A stretch of DNA of 47,023 nt from Candidatus Saccharimonadota bacterium (GTDB taxonomy: Bacteria; Patescibacteriota; Saccharimonadia; Saccharimonadales; UBA4665): positions 1-47,023 of the forward strand of contig DAHXLX010000019.1 in the NCBI GenBank assembly GCA_027365775.1, written 5' to 3'. Made by a program: the position numbers and the translations under genes. The notes under the pieces are model-generated. The model made no database searches. It was not told the origin of the DNA and worked only from the letters and a program-made list of their open reading frames with translations. Below are positions 35,125-38,692 of this stretch, piece after piece; position 1 is the stretch's first letter; each line of letters opens with the position of its first letter.

Positions 35125-35391
35125 CTATTTAACGGTCGCTAATATATCTTCTTCTTTAACTAGTATGTATTCTTCATTGTCCACTTTGACGTCGGTGGTA
35201 CTATAGCTCTTGTAGACTATCCGGTCGCCATTCTTGACTTGCTTGACGTCTTTGCCTATGGCTACGACTTTTGCGGTTTTGGGTTTTTCGGCGGCATTAT
35301 CCGGAAGATAAAGCCCACTGGCCGTTTTATTGGCGACTTCGTCGGCCTGCGCGACTACATATTCTCCAAGCGGCTGCAAAGGTACGCTCAT
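35125..35391 (-). CDS. groS: Co-chaperonin GroES
   Basis: The 88-residue protein is a compact GroES: P-L-G-E-Y-V-V-A-Q near the start, and the mobile loop A-N-K-T-A-S-G-L-Y-L-P-D-N-A. Then come V-V-A-I-G-K-D-V and G-D-R-I-V-Y-K-S-Y, ending I-L-V-K-E-E-D-I-L-A. It caps the GroEL chamber. A very strong AAGGAGG ribosome-binding site precedes it. The promoter and two CIRCE elements lie 40-110 bp upstream. Confidence 0.97.
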   Translation of the reverse strand: MSVPLQPLGEYVVAQADEVANKTASGLYLPDNAAEKPKTAKVVAIGKDVKQVKNGDRIVYKSYSTTDVKVDNEEYILVKEEDILATVK

Positions 35392-35430
35392 AATAATTAA
35401 GCTCCTCCTTAAAAGCTATAATTTCTTTTG

Positions 35431-35457
35431 TTAGCACTACAACTATGTGAGTGCCAA
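35431..35457 (-). promoter_or_regulatory. CIRCE operator 1 (HrcA site), in the groES leader
   Basis: TTAGCACTA-N9-GAGTGCCAA matches the CIRCE consensus TTAGCACTC-N9-GAGTGCTAA with two mismatches. It lies downstream of the -10 box, in the transcribed leader, the usual place for HrcA repression. hrcA itself is not in the window. Confidence 0.88.
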
Positions 35458-35460
35458 CTA

Positions 35461-35487
35461 TCAGCACTCACTATAATTGACTGCTAA
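35461..35487 (-). promoter_or_regulatory. CIRCE operator 2, overlapping the groES promoter
   Basis: TCAGCACTC-N9-GACTGCTAA matches CIRCE with two mismatches, one in each arm. Its 9-bp spacer contains the -10 box. It is 3 bp from operator 1, centre to centre 30 bp, about three helical turns, so two HrcA dimers could bind the same face. Confidence 0.85.
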
Positions 35488-35499
35488 AAAAAATGTCAA
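35470..35499 (-). promoter_or_regulatory. groES-groEL promoter (TTGACA-18-TATAGT)
   Basis: On the minus strand the perfect -35 TTGACA (35494-35499) and TATAGT (35470-35475) are 18 bp apart, with a T-tract in the spacer. The -10 box lies inside CIRCE operator 2, so HrcA binding would block RNA polymerase. Confidence 0.8.
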
Positions 35500-35717
35500 G
35501 AGTCAGCCCACTATTTAGATCCGCTTTCAGGTAATCGCTACCTAAACTGATGCCTGCAGCCAAGCATTTGCCTCGGTGCCGGCTCAATTTTCTACTACAT
35601 CAGATCGAAAGTTAAAGCTAATAATAAAGCCGTCTCGGTTATTTATGTAGCTATTTATAATTTTCAGCGTCAAAATACCAGTTCGCCCGACAACTATCTG
35701 TTACGTTAAACGGTTGA
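35500..35717. other. 218-bp gap without a recognised feature
   Basis: Between the groES promoter and the next small frame no coding sequence, tRNA or strong hairpin is visible. The base composition is ordinary. It may contain the 3' region of the small minus-strand gene at 35718. Confidence 0.5.
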
Positions 35718-35915
35718 TCACCGGGCTTTTGGCTGTTCTTCCGGTCTTGACGGCTGTAAATTATCCAGGTATTCGATTAACTGAAAAGTGTTGATCAACC
35801 TGATCAATTCTTCTCGCCGACCGTTCAAAATGGCCATCTGTCCTATATTCATAAACAGCTCATTTGGATTTACATCCGACATTTCCGGCGATACAGACGG
35901 TAAAGCCGCCTGCAA
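35718..35915 (-). CDS. Possible small protein, start uncertain
   Basis: This is an open frame of at least 65 residues whose only upstream initiator in frame is TTG at 35915. The frame stays open further upstream for about 26 more codons without any ATG, GTG or TTG, up to a TAA at about 35991. Those codons also look protein-like (R-Q-R-Q-E-Q-L-V-R-F-V-Q-S-E-Y). The encoded end R-R-E-E-L-I-R-L-I-N-T-F-Q-L-I-E-Y-L is helical and charged. Either the start codon is unusual, or the gene is a 5'-truncated or frameshifted remnant. No family was recognised. Confidence 0.35.
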   Translation of the reverse strand: MQAALPSVSPEMSDVNPNELFMNIGQMAILNGRREELIRLINTFQLIEYLDNLQPSRPEEQPKAR

Positions 35916-36042
35916 AGTGTTGATGTTTTCGTATTCCGACTGTACAAATCTGACGAGCTGTTCCTGCCGTTGGCGGGCTCGTGGTGCTTAAAGAACTTAG
36001 CCAGGTTACCTTTCACGGTTAGAGATTACCATCATATTGGTG

Positions 36043-36072
36043 TTGTGTAAACATTATTATACTTGATATAAT
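36043..36072 (+). promoter_or_regulatory. Promoter of the PRTase-NADAR module (TTGTGT-18-TATAAT)
   Basis: TTGTGT (36043-36048) and a perfect TATAAT (36067-36072) are 18 bp apart. The leader to the ATG at 36115 is about 35 nt, one of the longer ones here, and lacks a clear Shine-Dalgarno sequence. Confidence 0.65.
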
Positions 36073-36114
36073 CCAGCTCGAAGATTCGCTTTTCATCAAA
36101 TTTATGACCTAGTT

Positions 36115-37239
36115 ATGAAGAGTTTTAGCATTGACCTATTGGCCACTAATCCGGAACAGTCCCGGCCAGTCAGAAACGACAGCCTTAGCCTGCAAGATAC
36201 CTACAGCGCCTACTGCCGCACTGCTGAAGATATGTATATAGCTTCAGCAATTGGAAACGCGGTGTTAATGAGATTGGTAGAAAAGTCAGCTAAACTGCCT
36301 CAATCATCGGCTCAACCTAAAGGCGAATTATTAACCGAACAAAAAAGTATCGAATTGTCGCCGCGATTTATAGACCAAACCATGGATGATAGTCGCCAAT
36401 CAGATTTTTACTATCTTAAACGCCATAAACGTGTTAAAGGCCCGATGACCGAACAGCAGGGACTGCGCGGACTTGACGGCTTCCTCGAATTATTTAAGCG
36501 GGCGGCAGGCAATGGCAACATAGCCAACCAGGATCCTTCGACGGTCGAGTATCTATTGCAACGAGCCAACAGAATTCAGTCGGATCTGTGCTTTATCGGT
36601 GAGAAGGAATTGTTAACAGCCTCAAAAGCCATAGCCGACTATTGGAGCGCGTATTTGGATGAAGATCCGCGCAATAAATTATGCATTGTAACCAATATCG
36701 GTTCTTTGGCAAGATATACCGGGAACAATAGGATTAAAAGCGATCGTTATCTACAGCATCGTGTAATCCAAGAATTGGGTCCCGATCGCTTAGACCGTTT
36801 TCGTGGCAGAATATCCGATTCAGTCACTAAGTTCAACGGTTCTACGGGCCATTCAAAGATTGTTATGCTAGATGACTGGATGCTTAGCGGTCAACAAATG
36901 AAAGACCAATTTTTAAGCTTAGCCAAAACTGCTAGGTTATTGCAGTACATTGAACAAGGCTGCTTGGAAATTAACTTAGTTGCTGCCGCCTCCAGTCACA
37001 TAAAAAGCGGGCTTAGAATCGATCAGCATTTCGTAGTACCGGTTAAGGCATATTATGCAGCCAAGGACTCCACTGACGTAAAGGGCATATCACACGTGGT
37101 AATTTCCGGTCTGCACAGTTCGGCCAACTATGGTTTCGATTTTGATTTACGAACCATATCGTCAGTCTTGAAAGCCGAGCAACCGGCTATCTCCAGCGTT
37201 CAACGTCGTTATAGTGAACACAGGTTAGCCACGTTATAA
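36115..37239 (+). CDS. Phosphoribosyltransferase-fold protein, first gene of a NADAR-linked module
   Basis: The 374-residue protein has an N-terminal half with no recognised family (about 1-150, mostly helical). The C-terminal half is PRTase-like: F-I-G-E-K-E-L near 160, and K-L-C-I-V-T-N-I-G-S-L-A-R-Y (188-201). The PRPP-loop-like K248-I-V-M-L-D253-D254-W-M-L-S258-G259-Q-Q follows. L-V-A-A-A-S-S-H-I-K-S-G (288-299) comes next. The D-D-x-x-x-S-G form resembles PRTase-like domains found in conflict and NAD-related gene sets rather than salvage enzymes. It is followed 13 bp later by a NADAR gene and is flanked by unrelated housekeeping genes. Substrate and partner are unknown. Confidence 0.65.
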   Translation: MKSFSIDLLATNPEQSRPVRNDSLSLQDTYSAYCRTAEDMYIASAIGNAVLMRLVEKSAKLPQSSAQPKGELLTEQKSIELSPRFIDQTMDDSRQSDFYYLKRHKRVKGPMTEQQGLRGLDGFLELFKRAAGNGNIANQDPSTVEYLLQRANRIQSDLCFIGEKELLTASKAIADYWSAYLDEDPRNKLCIVTNIGSLARYTGNNRIKSDRYLQHRVIQELGPDRLDRFRGRISDSVTKFNGSTGHSKIVMLDDWMLSGQQMKDQFLSLAKTARLLQYIEQGCLEINLVAAASSHIKSGLRIDQHFVVPVKAYYAAKDSTDVKGISHVVISGLHSSANYGFDFDLRTISSVLKAEQPAISSVQRRYSEHRLATL

Positions 37240-37252
37240 TGGAGATGTAGCA

Positions 37253-37735
37253 ATGAGTTTAAATAGCCCAGCCTTCAGAGGAGAACGATACTTCCTAAGT
37301 AATATGTACCCGTTGAAGCAGCCGCTAATCATGGACGATAGTACCAAAATCACAGTCGCCAGCCTAGAGAATGTCTTTCAGGCATTGAAATTCGCCGACA
37401 GCGATATCGCAAACCAAGTTCTCTCCGCGCCTACCGGTTATGCTGCCAAGAGGCTGGCTAGGAATTACCTGGCCGACGGAGCAATTTTGAAAGATCAATG
37501 GAATGACAGAAAAATTGAGATAATGTCCGGTCTGGTAAGAGCTAAATTCAACTCAGATGCTAAACTACAAGAATTATTGCTCGCCACTGATAACGAAGAG
37601 TTGGTTGAATATAATCCATGGCGTGATGACTTCTGGGGAGTACGCGATGATACGGGCGAGGGCCGTAACGAACTAGGTAAAATTCTAATGACCGTGCGCG
37701 AAGAATTACGACGACTAAAACTTATTGATTCATAG
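37253..37735 (+). CDS. NADAR-domain protein (YbiA-like N-glycosidase fold)
   Basis: The 160-residue protein matches NADAR: F14-L-S-N-M-Y-P20, then V-A-S-L-E39-N-V-F-Q-A-L-K-F with the catalytic-region Glu. Next are A-A-K-R-L-A-R, W83-N-D-R-K-I-E-I-M, L-V-R-A-K-F, W128-G-V and R138-N-E-L-G-K-I-L-M-x-V-R. Family members hydrolyse N-glycosidic bonds: YbiA-type proteins clear riboflavin-pathway intermediates, and others remove ADP-ribose from guanine as antitoxins to DarT-like enzymes. GGAG precedes the ATG at 8 bp. The operon partner is a PRTase-fold protein, not a recognisable DarT, so the target is open. Confidence 0.88.
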   Translation: MSLNSPAFRGERYFLSNMYPLKQPLIMDDSTKITVASLENVFQALKFADSDIANQVLSAPTGYAAKRLARNYLADGAILKDQWNDRKIEIMSGLVRAKFNSDAKLQELLLATDNEELVEYNPWRDDFWGVRDDTGEGRNELGKILMTVREELRRLKLIDS

Positions 37736-37834
37736 AACTAACACCGAATAATACAGCTAGTAAAAACTAATTATGGCAATCACGGCCGGTACTTAAACAT
37801 AGTTTTTGGCGTAGTTTGTTAAACTAATAGTTAA

Positions 37835-38692
37835 ATGTCACGACCGATCATAAACCAGACGGTATTGATGTCCGGTGCCGACTTCATTAGTGTCGAGGAA
37901 CTCAATCCATATTCAAAAATTAATATTCAGCCAGACCGTGACGCTGCCATGAATGAGCACGCGAATGTCATTACAGCCTTGGAAACGGCTGGCATTGAGG
38001 TCGTTAAAGTTAATGCTCCCAAAGATTGCCAGGACGGAATATATACCGCTAACTGGGCCTTATGTTGGCGAGGCAAGGTCGTATTGTCTTCCCTGCCCAA
38101 CAAGCGGCGGGCAGAACAACCATACGCCAAACAAGTCCTTAGTGCATTAGGTTATGAAACAATCGAATCACCGTATCATTTCAGCGGCCAGGGTGACGCC
38201 CTACCGTGCGGAGACTATTTGTTTGTCGGCAGCCATTACCGTACCTCGCCGAAAATGCATGATTTTTTGGCTAATGTGTACGATTGCAACGTTATCGGAC
38301 TGGAAACCATACCGGAATTGGATGCTAACGGCAAACCGGTAATCAACGCCGTTACCGGATGGCCGGACAGTTACTTCTATGACTTGGACTTGGCGTTGGC
38401 GGTCATTACTCCGGATCTGATTGCCTGGTGTCCGGACGCCTTTACTGAGGAAAGCCGACACAAGATCGCCTCATTACCCTTACAGAAAATTACCGTTTCC
38501 TTCAAAGAAGCGGAAGAAGGCTTCGCCTGCAACTTAGTATCCACCGGTGAAACAGTAATCATGAGCGACAAGGCGCCGGAGTTAAAAAAAGCTATCGAAG
38601 AACACGGCTTAACAACCATAACGCCACACATTACCGAACTGTCCAAAGGCGGCGGTTACATTCGCTGCTGTAGTCTTACGCTTTGTTCTTAA
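37835..38692 (+). CDS. Guanidine-modifying enzyme superfamily protein (DDAH/arginine deiminase-like)
   Basis: The 285-residue protein follows the five-bladed propeller amidinotransferase family. C65-Q-D67-G-I-Y-T-A-N-W marks the substrate-binding region, and S-G-Q-G-D121-A-L-P-C-G-D-Y-L-F-V-G is the typical G-D loop. The C-terminal G-G-G-Y-I-R-C278-C-S-L-T-L holds the nucleophile Cys. The usual H-L-D-x-A-L segment with the catalytic His reads Y-D183-L-D-L-A-L, so the His appears to be Asp, one base change (CAC to GAC). Activity on dimethylarginine or arginine is therefore doubtful. It overlaps the convergent murE-like gene by 17 bp. Confidence 0.8.
   Translation: MSRPIINQTVLMSGADFISVEELNPYSKINIQPDRDAAMNEHANVITALETAGIEVVKVNAPKDCQDGIYTANWALCWRGKVVLSSLPNKRRAEQPYAKQVLSALGYETIESPYHFSGQGDALPCGDYLFVGSHYRTSPKMHDFLANVYDCNVIGLETIPELDANGKPVINAVTGWPDSYFYDLDLALAVITPDLIAWCPDAFTEESRHKIASLPLQKITVSFKEAEEGFACNLVSTGETVIMSDKAPELKKAIEEHGLTTITPHITELSKGGGYIRCCSLTLCS

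Follow-up and report, generated by a model that had tools for sequence, protein, structure and literature searches.

We describe here a pair of adjacent genes in the genome of a Candidatus Saccharimonadota bacterium that we read, with a probability of about 0.55, as a two-gene conflict module, probably directed against phages. In this pair, a PRTase-CE-type phosphoribosyltransferase (PRTase) would be combined with a NADAR protein in the layout of the defence system DS-32. The pair occupies, as optional cargo, a variable slot beside groESL. We favour a defence module because of the predicted PRTase fold of the first protein, the matches of its family to the PRTase-CE and PRTase_III-A models, the gene order shared with DS-32, the presence of a second such pair in another genus (genome G185), and the variability of the slot itself. 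What is new is the Saccharibacteria PRTase family, its exchange of partners (a NADAR subclade in two genera or a BtpA-like protein in five genomes), and the variable slot.

The window, that is, the whole stretch of 47,023 nucleotides that was analysed, belongs to a genome of 715 kb that is 70% complete. ORF1 (36115-37239, + strand) starts with ATG and encodes a PRTase-fold protein of 374 aa, and ORF2 (37253-37735, + strand) encodes a NADAR protein of the YbiA subfamily of 160 aa. Both are intact and co-directional, and 13 bp separate the stop codon of ORF1 from the start of ORF2, as the first-pass annotation had reported. The flanks were also correctly described there: groES (35125-35391, − strand), with groEL on the same strand, lies to the left, and a DDAH-like gene (37835-38692, + strand; PF19420, E = 7.5e-11) to the right. 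The same annotation gave the pair its own TATAAT promoter, a claim that stands in part. TATAAT is present at 36067-36072 and is preceded by TG, so that direct reading yields a candidate extended −10 element (TGaTATAAT, 36064-36072, + strand) 42 bp before ORF1. A consensus promoter scan scored no −35 element for it and left the TATAAT uncalled because no good −35 precedes it; the extended −10 is a plausible candidate for the ORF1 promoter. Between the groES promoter region and ORF1 there is also a 65-aa, TTG-start ORF (35718-35915, − strand), possibly a remnant gene, which was without a match in relatives.

How stable is the position of this gene pair? The sequence upstream of groES (35419-35503, − strand), in which the promoter scan found a TTGACA-18-TATAGT match, is shared with relatives up to approximately position 35503 according to blastn. 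Because the conservation stops there, we took this position as the left edge of a variable slot, which holds the module and extends from 35504 to 37834, between groES and the DDAH-like gene, in the comparison with relatives. We located the DDAH-like gene in 15 further genomes from the same genus. In nine of these, groES and the DDAH-like gene are directly divergent, with a gap of 78-288 bp and nothing between them, and in the other six the slot contains other genes; the gap in the window is 2443 bp. Because the slot is empty or otherwise filled in relatives, the PRTase-NADAR pair is accessory, as the first-pass annotation had suggested. Part of the cargo in relatives encodes uncharacterised proteins that look alike (about 169-245 aa), and a transposase-like ORF occurs there too. 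Such proteins were seen in same-genus genomes at loci L145 (2326-3045), L146, L150, L151, L139 (846-1355) and L148 (2-346), and the L148 copy adjoins the transposase-like ORF. In a genome of another genus (G021), the same slot carries a second, different PRTase-domain protein (PF00156, E = 4.9e-5), encoded at L176 9785-10792 (L158 2445-3452).

The PRTase-like loop that had been noted in ORF1, KIVMLDDWMLSG, does lie at residues 248-259. It constitutes a PRPP-binding-type motif, K248-IVMLDDWMLS-G259 (36856-36891, + strand; D253, D254, S258 and G259), in which a hydrophobic strand is followed by [DE]D, three residues and [ST]G (IVMLDDWMLSG). The signature [LIVM]3[DE]Dx3[ST]G appeared in 0.045% of shuffles of the ORF1 protein, and DDWxxS[G/A] is kept in all 21 aligned Saccharibacteria homologues. 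Retention of both acidic residues and of the SG loop suggests that ORF1 binds PRPP. In the alignments, K208-S209-D210 (36736-36744, + strand), of which KS is invariant, lies where a helix begins behind a flexible loop and is possibly the PPi/catalytic loop. Taken alone, ORF1 matches the Pfam PRTase-CE family (PF24390) weakly (E = 0.14, 12.4 bits) and below the curated cut-off of 27 bits, and is related to PRTase-CE without being a curated member; the same model matches 17 of the 21 homologues at E ≤ 0.1 (best, 2.8e-7), and the PADLOC retron-effector model PRTase_III-A matches nine of them (best, 4.9e-6). An AlphaFold2 model built from a 13-sequence alignment has a core at approximately residues 80-364 with pLDDT values of about 85-95, and residues 1-78 are mostly disordered. 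When this model was compared with the PDB by Foldseek, the first ranks went to hypoxanthine-guanine PRTases (prob 1.00, E = 3e-4), and most of the top 50 matches were PRTases or PyrR. The TM-scores were moderate (TMt 0.32-0.51), which indicates a diverged PRTase with extra elements. By its predicted fold and its motif, ORF1 belongs to the type I PRTase fold superfamily, and the fold that the first-pass annotation had proposed was thus recovered by structural comparison. Sequence searches of solved structures with PRTase profiles returned nothing meaningful, scans of IMG/VR revealed no virus-borne protein directly related to the window PRTase, and a literature search on PRTase-CE found nothing.

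ORF2 had been named a NADAR protein, and with 96.5 bits it lies well above the 35.1-bit cut-off of the PF08719 model (E = 2.5e-27). Its closest solved structure is E. coli YbiA (2b3w, 1e-13). In an alignment to 8bau and 2b3w, E39, K46 and E119 of ORF2 fall on E43, K50 and E125 in the NADAR-ADPr structure of the Phytophthora nicotianae protein, residues whose roles are given in PMC11543638; substitutions at the equivalent positions of the E. coli C7 NADAR impair activity or rescue (PMC11543638). The catalytic position of the last strand is Glu rather than Asp or His, which, together with the conserved Glu and Lys, places ORF2 in the YbiA subfamily with its catalytic residues intact. NADARs cleave guanine-ADPr bonds, and YbiA cleaves N-glycosidic bonds of riboflavin intermediates (PMC11543638); YbiA-type NADARs also act as antitoxins, as in YarT-YbiA (PMC11125620). 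ORF2 passes TIGR02464, the riboflavin-intermediate N-glycosidase model (78.5 bits against a cut-off of 73.7), but this name leaves its substrate unfixed, because a DS32_2 protein of Klebsiella passes as well (81.0 bits). In a tree of 38 NADARs, the proteins from the window, G185 and a further genome, G038, form one clade with support of 99/92.

Profile searches found the ORF1-type PRTase family in 20 of the 393 genomes of the order, the window's own included. The PRTase and NADAR genes are adjacent in two of the 393, the window genome and G185, which belong to different genera of one family; in G185 the PRTase gene is followed by the NADAR gene after a 3-bp gap, directly upstream of groESL. 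The adjacency, whose conservation had been proposed as a check, was therefore seen again in a second genus. Most of the PRTase homologues are without any NADAR. The two occur in the same genome in four of the 393 genomes against 1.9 expected (P = 0.11, not significant), and their adjacency in two of these four cases has a probability of about 2e-6 under a rough random-order model that ignores relatedness. Because the genome-wide co-occurrence is not significant, the link between PRTase and NADAR rests on this adjacency and on the NADAR subclade.

A second partner emerged from the neighbourhoods. In five genomes (G040, G049, G051, G092 and G116), a gene encoding a BtpA-like TIM-barrel protein, which weakly resembles hexulose-phosphate synthase and other TIM-barrel enzymes, lies next to the PRTase gene or one gene off. 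The BtpA-like gene was found in 10 of the 393 genomes, half of which also have the PRTase (Fisher P = 4e-5). In G038, the subclade NADAR gene stands directly before a BtpA-like gene, in the row deaminase-NADAR-BtpA-HAM1/RdgB-like. In family f35, the PRTases occupy one recurrent housekeeping position of the chromosome (prfA/rpsB), and in G126 a BtpA-like gene lies just upstream of this rpsB-tsf position, a placement inferred from prfA/hemK-like genes and tsf because rpsB was left uncalled by the simple ORF picker. Since the G185, G038 and BtpA neighbourhoods join them, the PRTase, the NADAR subclade and the BtpA-like protein constitute a small linked set. The window and G185 proteins are not joined in the PRTase tree, which has long branches and weak support. 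Downstream of prfA/hemK-like genes in Ca. Saccharimonadia HM.17 (L062 3171-12249), six PRTase paralogues stand in tandem, and their N-terminal tails diverge; such an array, together with the very long branches, fits an arms-race gene.

Several other arrangements were observed around these genes. In G116, the PRTase domain forms the N-terminus of a Pro/Gly-rich protein of 2240 residues with no other Pfam domains (L044 1873-8595 = L064 6941-13663), encoded directly downstream of the BtpA-like gene. A family of unknown function (229-256 aa) occurs in the PRTase-BtpA clusters, usually between both genes (L038 5509-6279, L043 3347-4057 and L044 9320-10009). The NADAR genes at loci L087, L088, L091, L010 and L113 are beside or near HAM1/RdgB-like genes, which hints at roles in nucleotide house-cleaning. 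Elsewhere in the phylum, a distant PRTase homologue (G460, L160 1378-2364) is located near a pair that looks, by eye, like a PIN/AbrB-type toxin-antitoxin system.

The first-pass annotation had implied that a PRTase-fold partner for a NADAR was novel, and this does not hold, as the layout already bears a name and recurs in E. coli, IMG/VR contigs and plasmids. NCBIfam contains NF053875 (DS32_1, 'phosphoribosyltransferase-like anti-phage protein') and NF053876 (DS32_2, 'NADAR family anti-phage protein'), with equivalog cut-offs of 250 and 240 bits, respectively. From the NCBIfam names and numbering, on which the link rests, these are evidently system DS-32 of DefensePredictor, a study in which 42 systems protected E. 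coli MG1655 against phages (DeWeirdt, Mahoney & Laub 2026; PMC13092281). DS-32 is not treated by number in the main text of that paper, and we found no description of its chemistry in the literature. We examined 18 DS32_1-type loci, from 14 viral contigs, three PLSDB records and one E. coli prophage, and every one of them has the two genes side by side. The NADAR gene directly follows the DS-32 PRTase gene at 14 of 14 IMG/VR loci, and it does so on Methylobacterium and Vibrio plasmids as well. In Klebsiella, one locus exceeds the two equivalog cut-offs; its first gene matches PRTase-CE at 4.2e-45, and the NADAR is directly next to it. The E. coli pair lies beside lambdoid replication and nin genes, in a prophage-like region, and at least 80% of it is present in 43 of 5426 E. 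coli genomes. In E. coli ETEC1732, the DS-32 PRTase gene is interrupted by an IS5-family element (NZ_CP122823.1 3850784-3853617).

The window pair resembles DS-32 in that a PRTase-CE-type gene is followed at once by a NADAR gene, in the same order and on the same strand, and in that the DS32_2 NADAR is homologous to ORF2 (67.6 bits, E = 7.2e-19). The two differ in the family of the PRTase: DS32_1 had no match in the window genome at E ≤ 10, ORF1 included, and a single one among the 21 ORF1 homologues (0.016), and when the profiles of the Saccharibacteria and DS-32 PRTases were compared, the match was insignificant (prob 1.3%), with direct similarity at the motif alone. They differ also in the NADAR, which is shorter in the window and far under the equivalog cut-off, and in location, the window pair being in a chromosomal slot and DS-32 in prophages or plasmids. 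No BtpA-like gene was seen beside DS-32 among the loci examined. Because the profile comparison was insignificant, we withhold the claim that both PRTases form one family; what links them is Pfam PRTase-CE and the shared layout. Judged from its layout, the window pair is a diverged DS-32-like variant outside the DS-32 equivalog families.

Other known systems were compared in the same way. The Saccharibacteria family shares with PRTase-CE proteins (PF24390) and retron III-A effectors a PRTase fold with DD-x3-SG, and its members match both models; unlike the retron effectors, the pair has no WH gene. A type III-A retron was rejected, as no reverse transcriptase (RVT_1) was found in the 70%-complete genome and no Rfam RNA at 33-40 kb. 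In DarT1-NADAR and YarT-YbiA, a NADAR/YbiA protein with the YbiA-type catalytic Glu also stands beside a ribosyl-transferring enzyme (PMC11543638, PMC11125620), but the partner in the window has a predicted PRTase fold rather than an ART fold and would likely use PRPP rather than NAD+; DarT or another ART partner of the DarTG type was rejected on the Foldseek result. E. coli YbiA is the nearest solved relative of ORF2, and ORF2 passes TIGR02464, but the operon is a different one. The PRTases of polyvalent proteins in phages and conjugative elements (PMC5512222) show PRTase domains in mobile or conflict contexts, and in G116 such a domain is fused to a 2240-aa protein, but the window lacks a MuF or conjugative context.

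How might the two proteins act together? Upon infection or another cue, ORF1 would act with PRPP or a related ribosyl donor and join phosphoribose to a nucleobase, a nucleotide or a nucleic-acid amine. The product would harm the phage or the infected cell, and the NADAR would hydrolyse the N-ribosyl bond and restrain ORF1 activity, as NADAR/YbiA proteins reverse DarT1 and YarT. In the main rival reading, the genes serve the metabolism of nucleotides or cofactors, or damage control: ORF1 would make a phosphoribosylated compound or salvage a base, and the NADAR or, in other genomes, the BtpA-like protein, as a phosphate-binding TIM barrel, would handle faulty or excess N-ribosyl products. We regard this as possible, if doubtful. 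It draws on the same observations that argue against defence, namely the single chromosomal position of the f35 PRTases, the BtpA-like alternative, and the sister NADAR of G038 among genes of nucleotide metabolism; the significant co-occurrence of PRTase and BtpA-like genes, the weak likeness of the BtpA-like protein to TIM-barrel enzymes, and the small-molecule role of YbiA in riboflavin-intermediate cleavage (PMC11543638), YbiA being the structure nearest to ORF2, point the same way. A metabolic role is harder to reconcile with the patchy presence of the PRTase and the empty slots of close relatives, with PRTases that vary in their N-terminal tails, form tandem arrays and sit on long branches, or with the naming of the same two-domain operon elsewhere as an anti-phage system. 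The defence module must also contend with the failure of ORF1 to match DS32_1, the 67.6 bits of ORF2 against 240, and an adjacency found in two genomes of one family.

The pair might instead be a toxin-antitoxin system kept by addiction, with a toxic ORF1, a NADAR antitoxin and no role in defence. The antitoxin activity of NADAR and YbiA against the ART toxins DarT1 and YarT (PMC11543638, PMC11125620) and the small, operon-like form of the pair in a variable slot agree with this, but a toxin-first order fits DS-32 equally well, and the prevalence of PRTase homologues without a NADAR implies that the PRTase need not be toxic, or that it has antidotes other than the NADAR; we consider such a system unlikely. 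Least probable of all, and in our view very improbable, is that two unrelated genes share the slot by accident or through inherited gene order. The insignificant co-occurrence over the 393 genomes and the restriction of both adjacent cases to one family would allow this, but the rough random-order estimate for the adjacency, the differences in detail between the window and G185 neighbourhoods, the single supported NADAR subclade with G038, and the identical order in DS-32 argue against it. For the Saccharibacteria family, the question of toxin-antitoxin, defence or repair now leans to probable defence, by analogy with DS-32.

Little on the defence repertoire of Saccharibacteria was found in the open-access literature, and the pair described here points to accessory conflict genes in this group. 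Because a remote lineage shows the same layout with a different PRTase family, and a BtpA-like protein can substitute for the NADAR, our comparison suggests that the functional core may be the pairing of a phosphoribosyl-adding enzyme with one that cleaves N-glycosidic bonds. This leads to a testable claim, that the activity is reversible phosphoribosylation and not ADP-ribosylation. We speculate, with rather low confidence, that these genes form a Saccharibacteria family of conflict modules, in which a fast-evolving PRTase would put the phosphoribose of PRPP on a cellular or phage target, an interchangeable NADAR (for bond cleavage) or BtpA-like protein (for product processing) would serve as the second enzyme, and DS-32 would be a distant proteobacterial counterpart. 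If this is true, the Saccharibacteria modules and DS-32 would together establish phosphoribosylation as a reversible chemistry of conflict, a counterpart of ADP-ribosylation.
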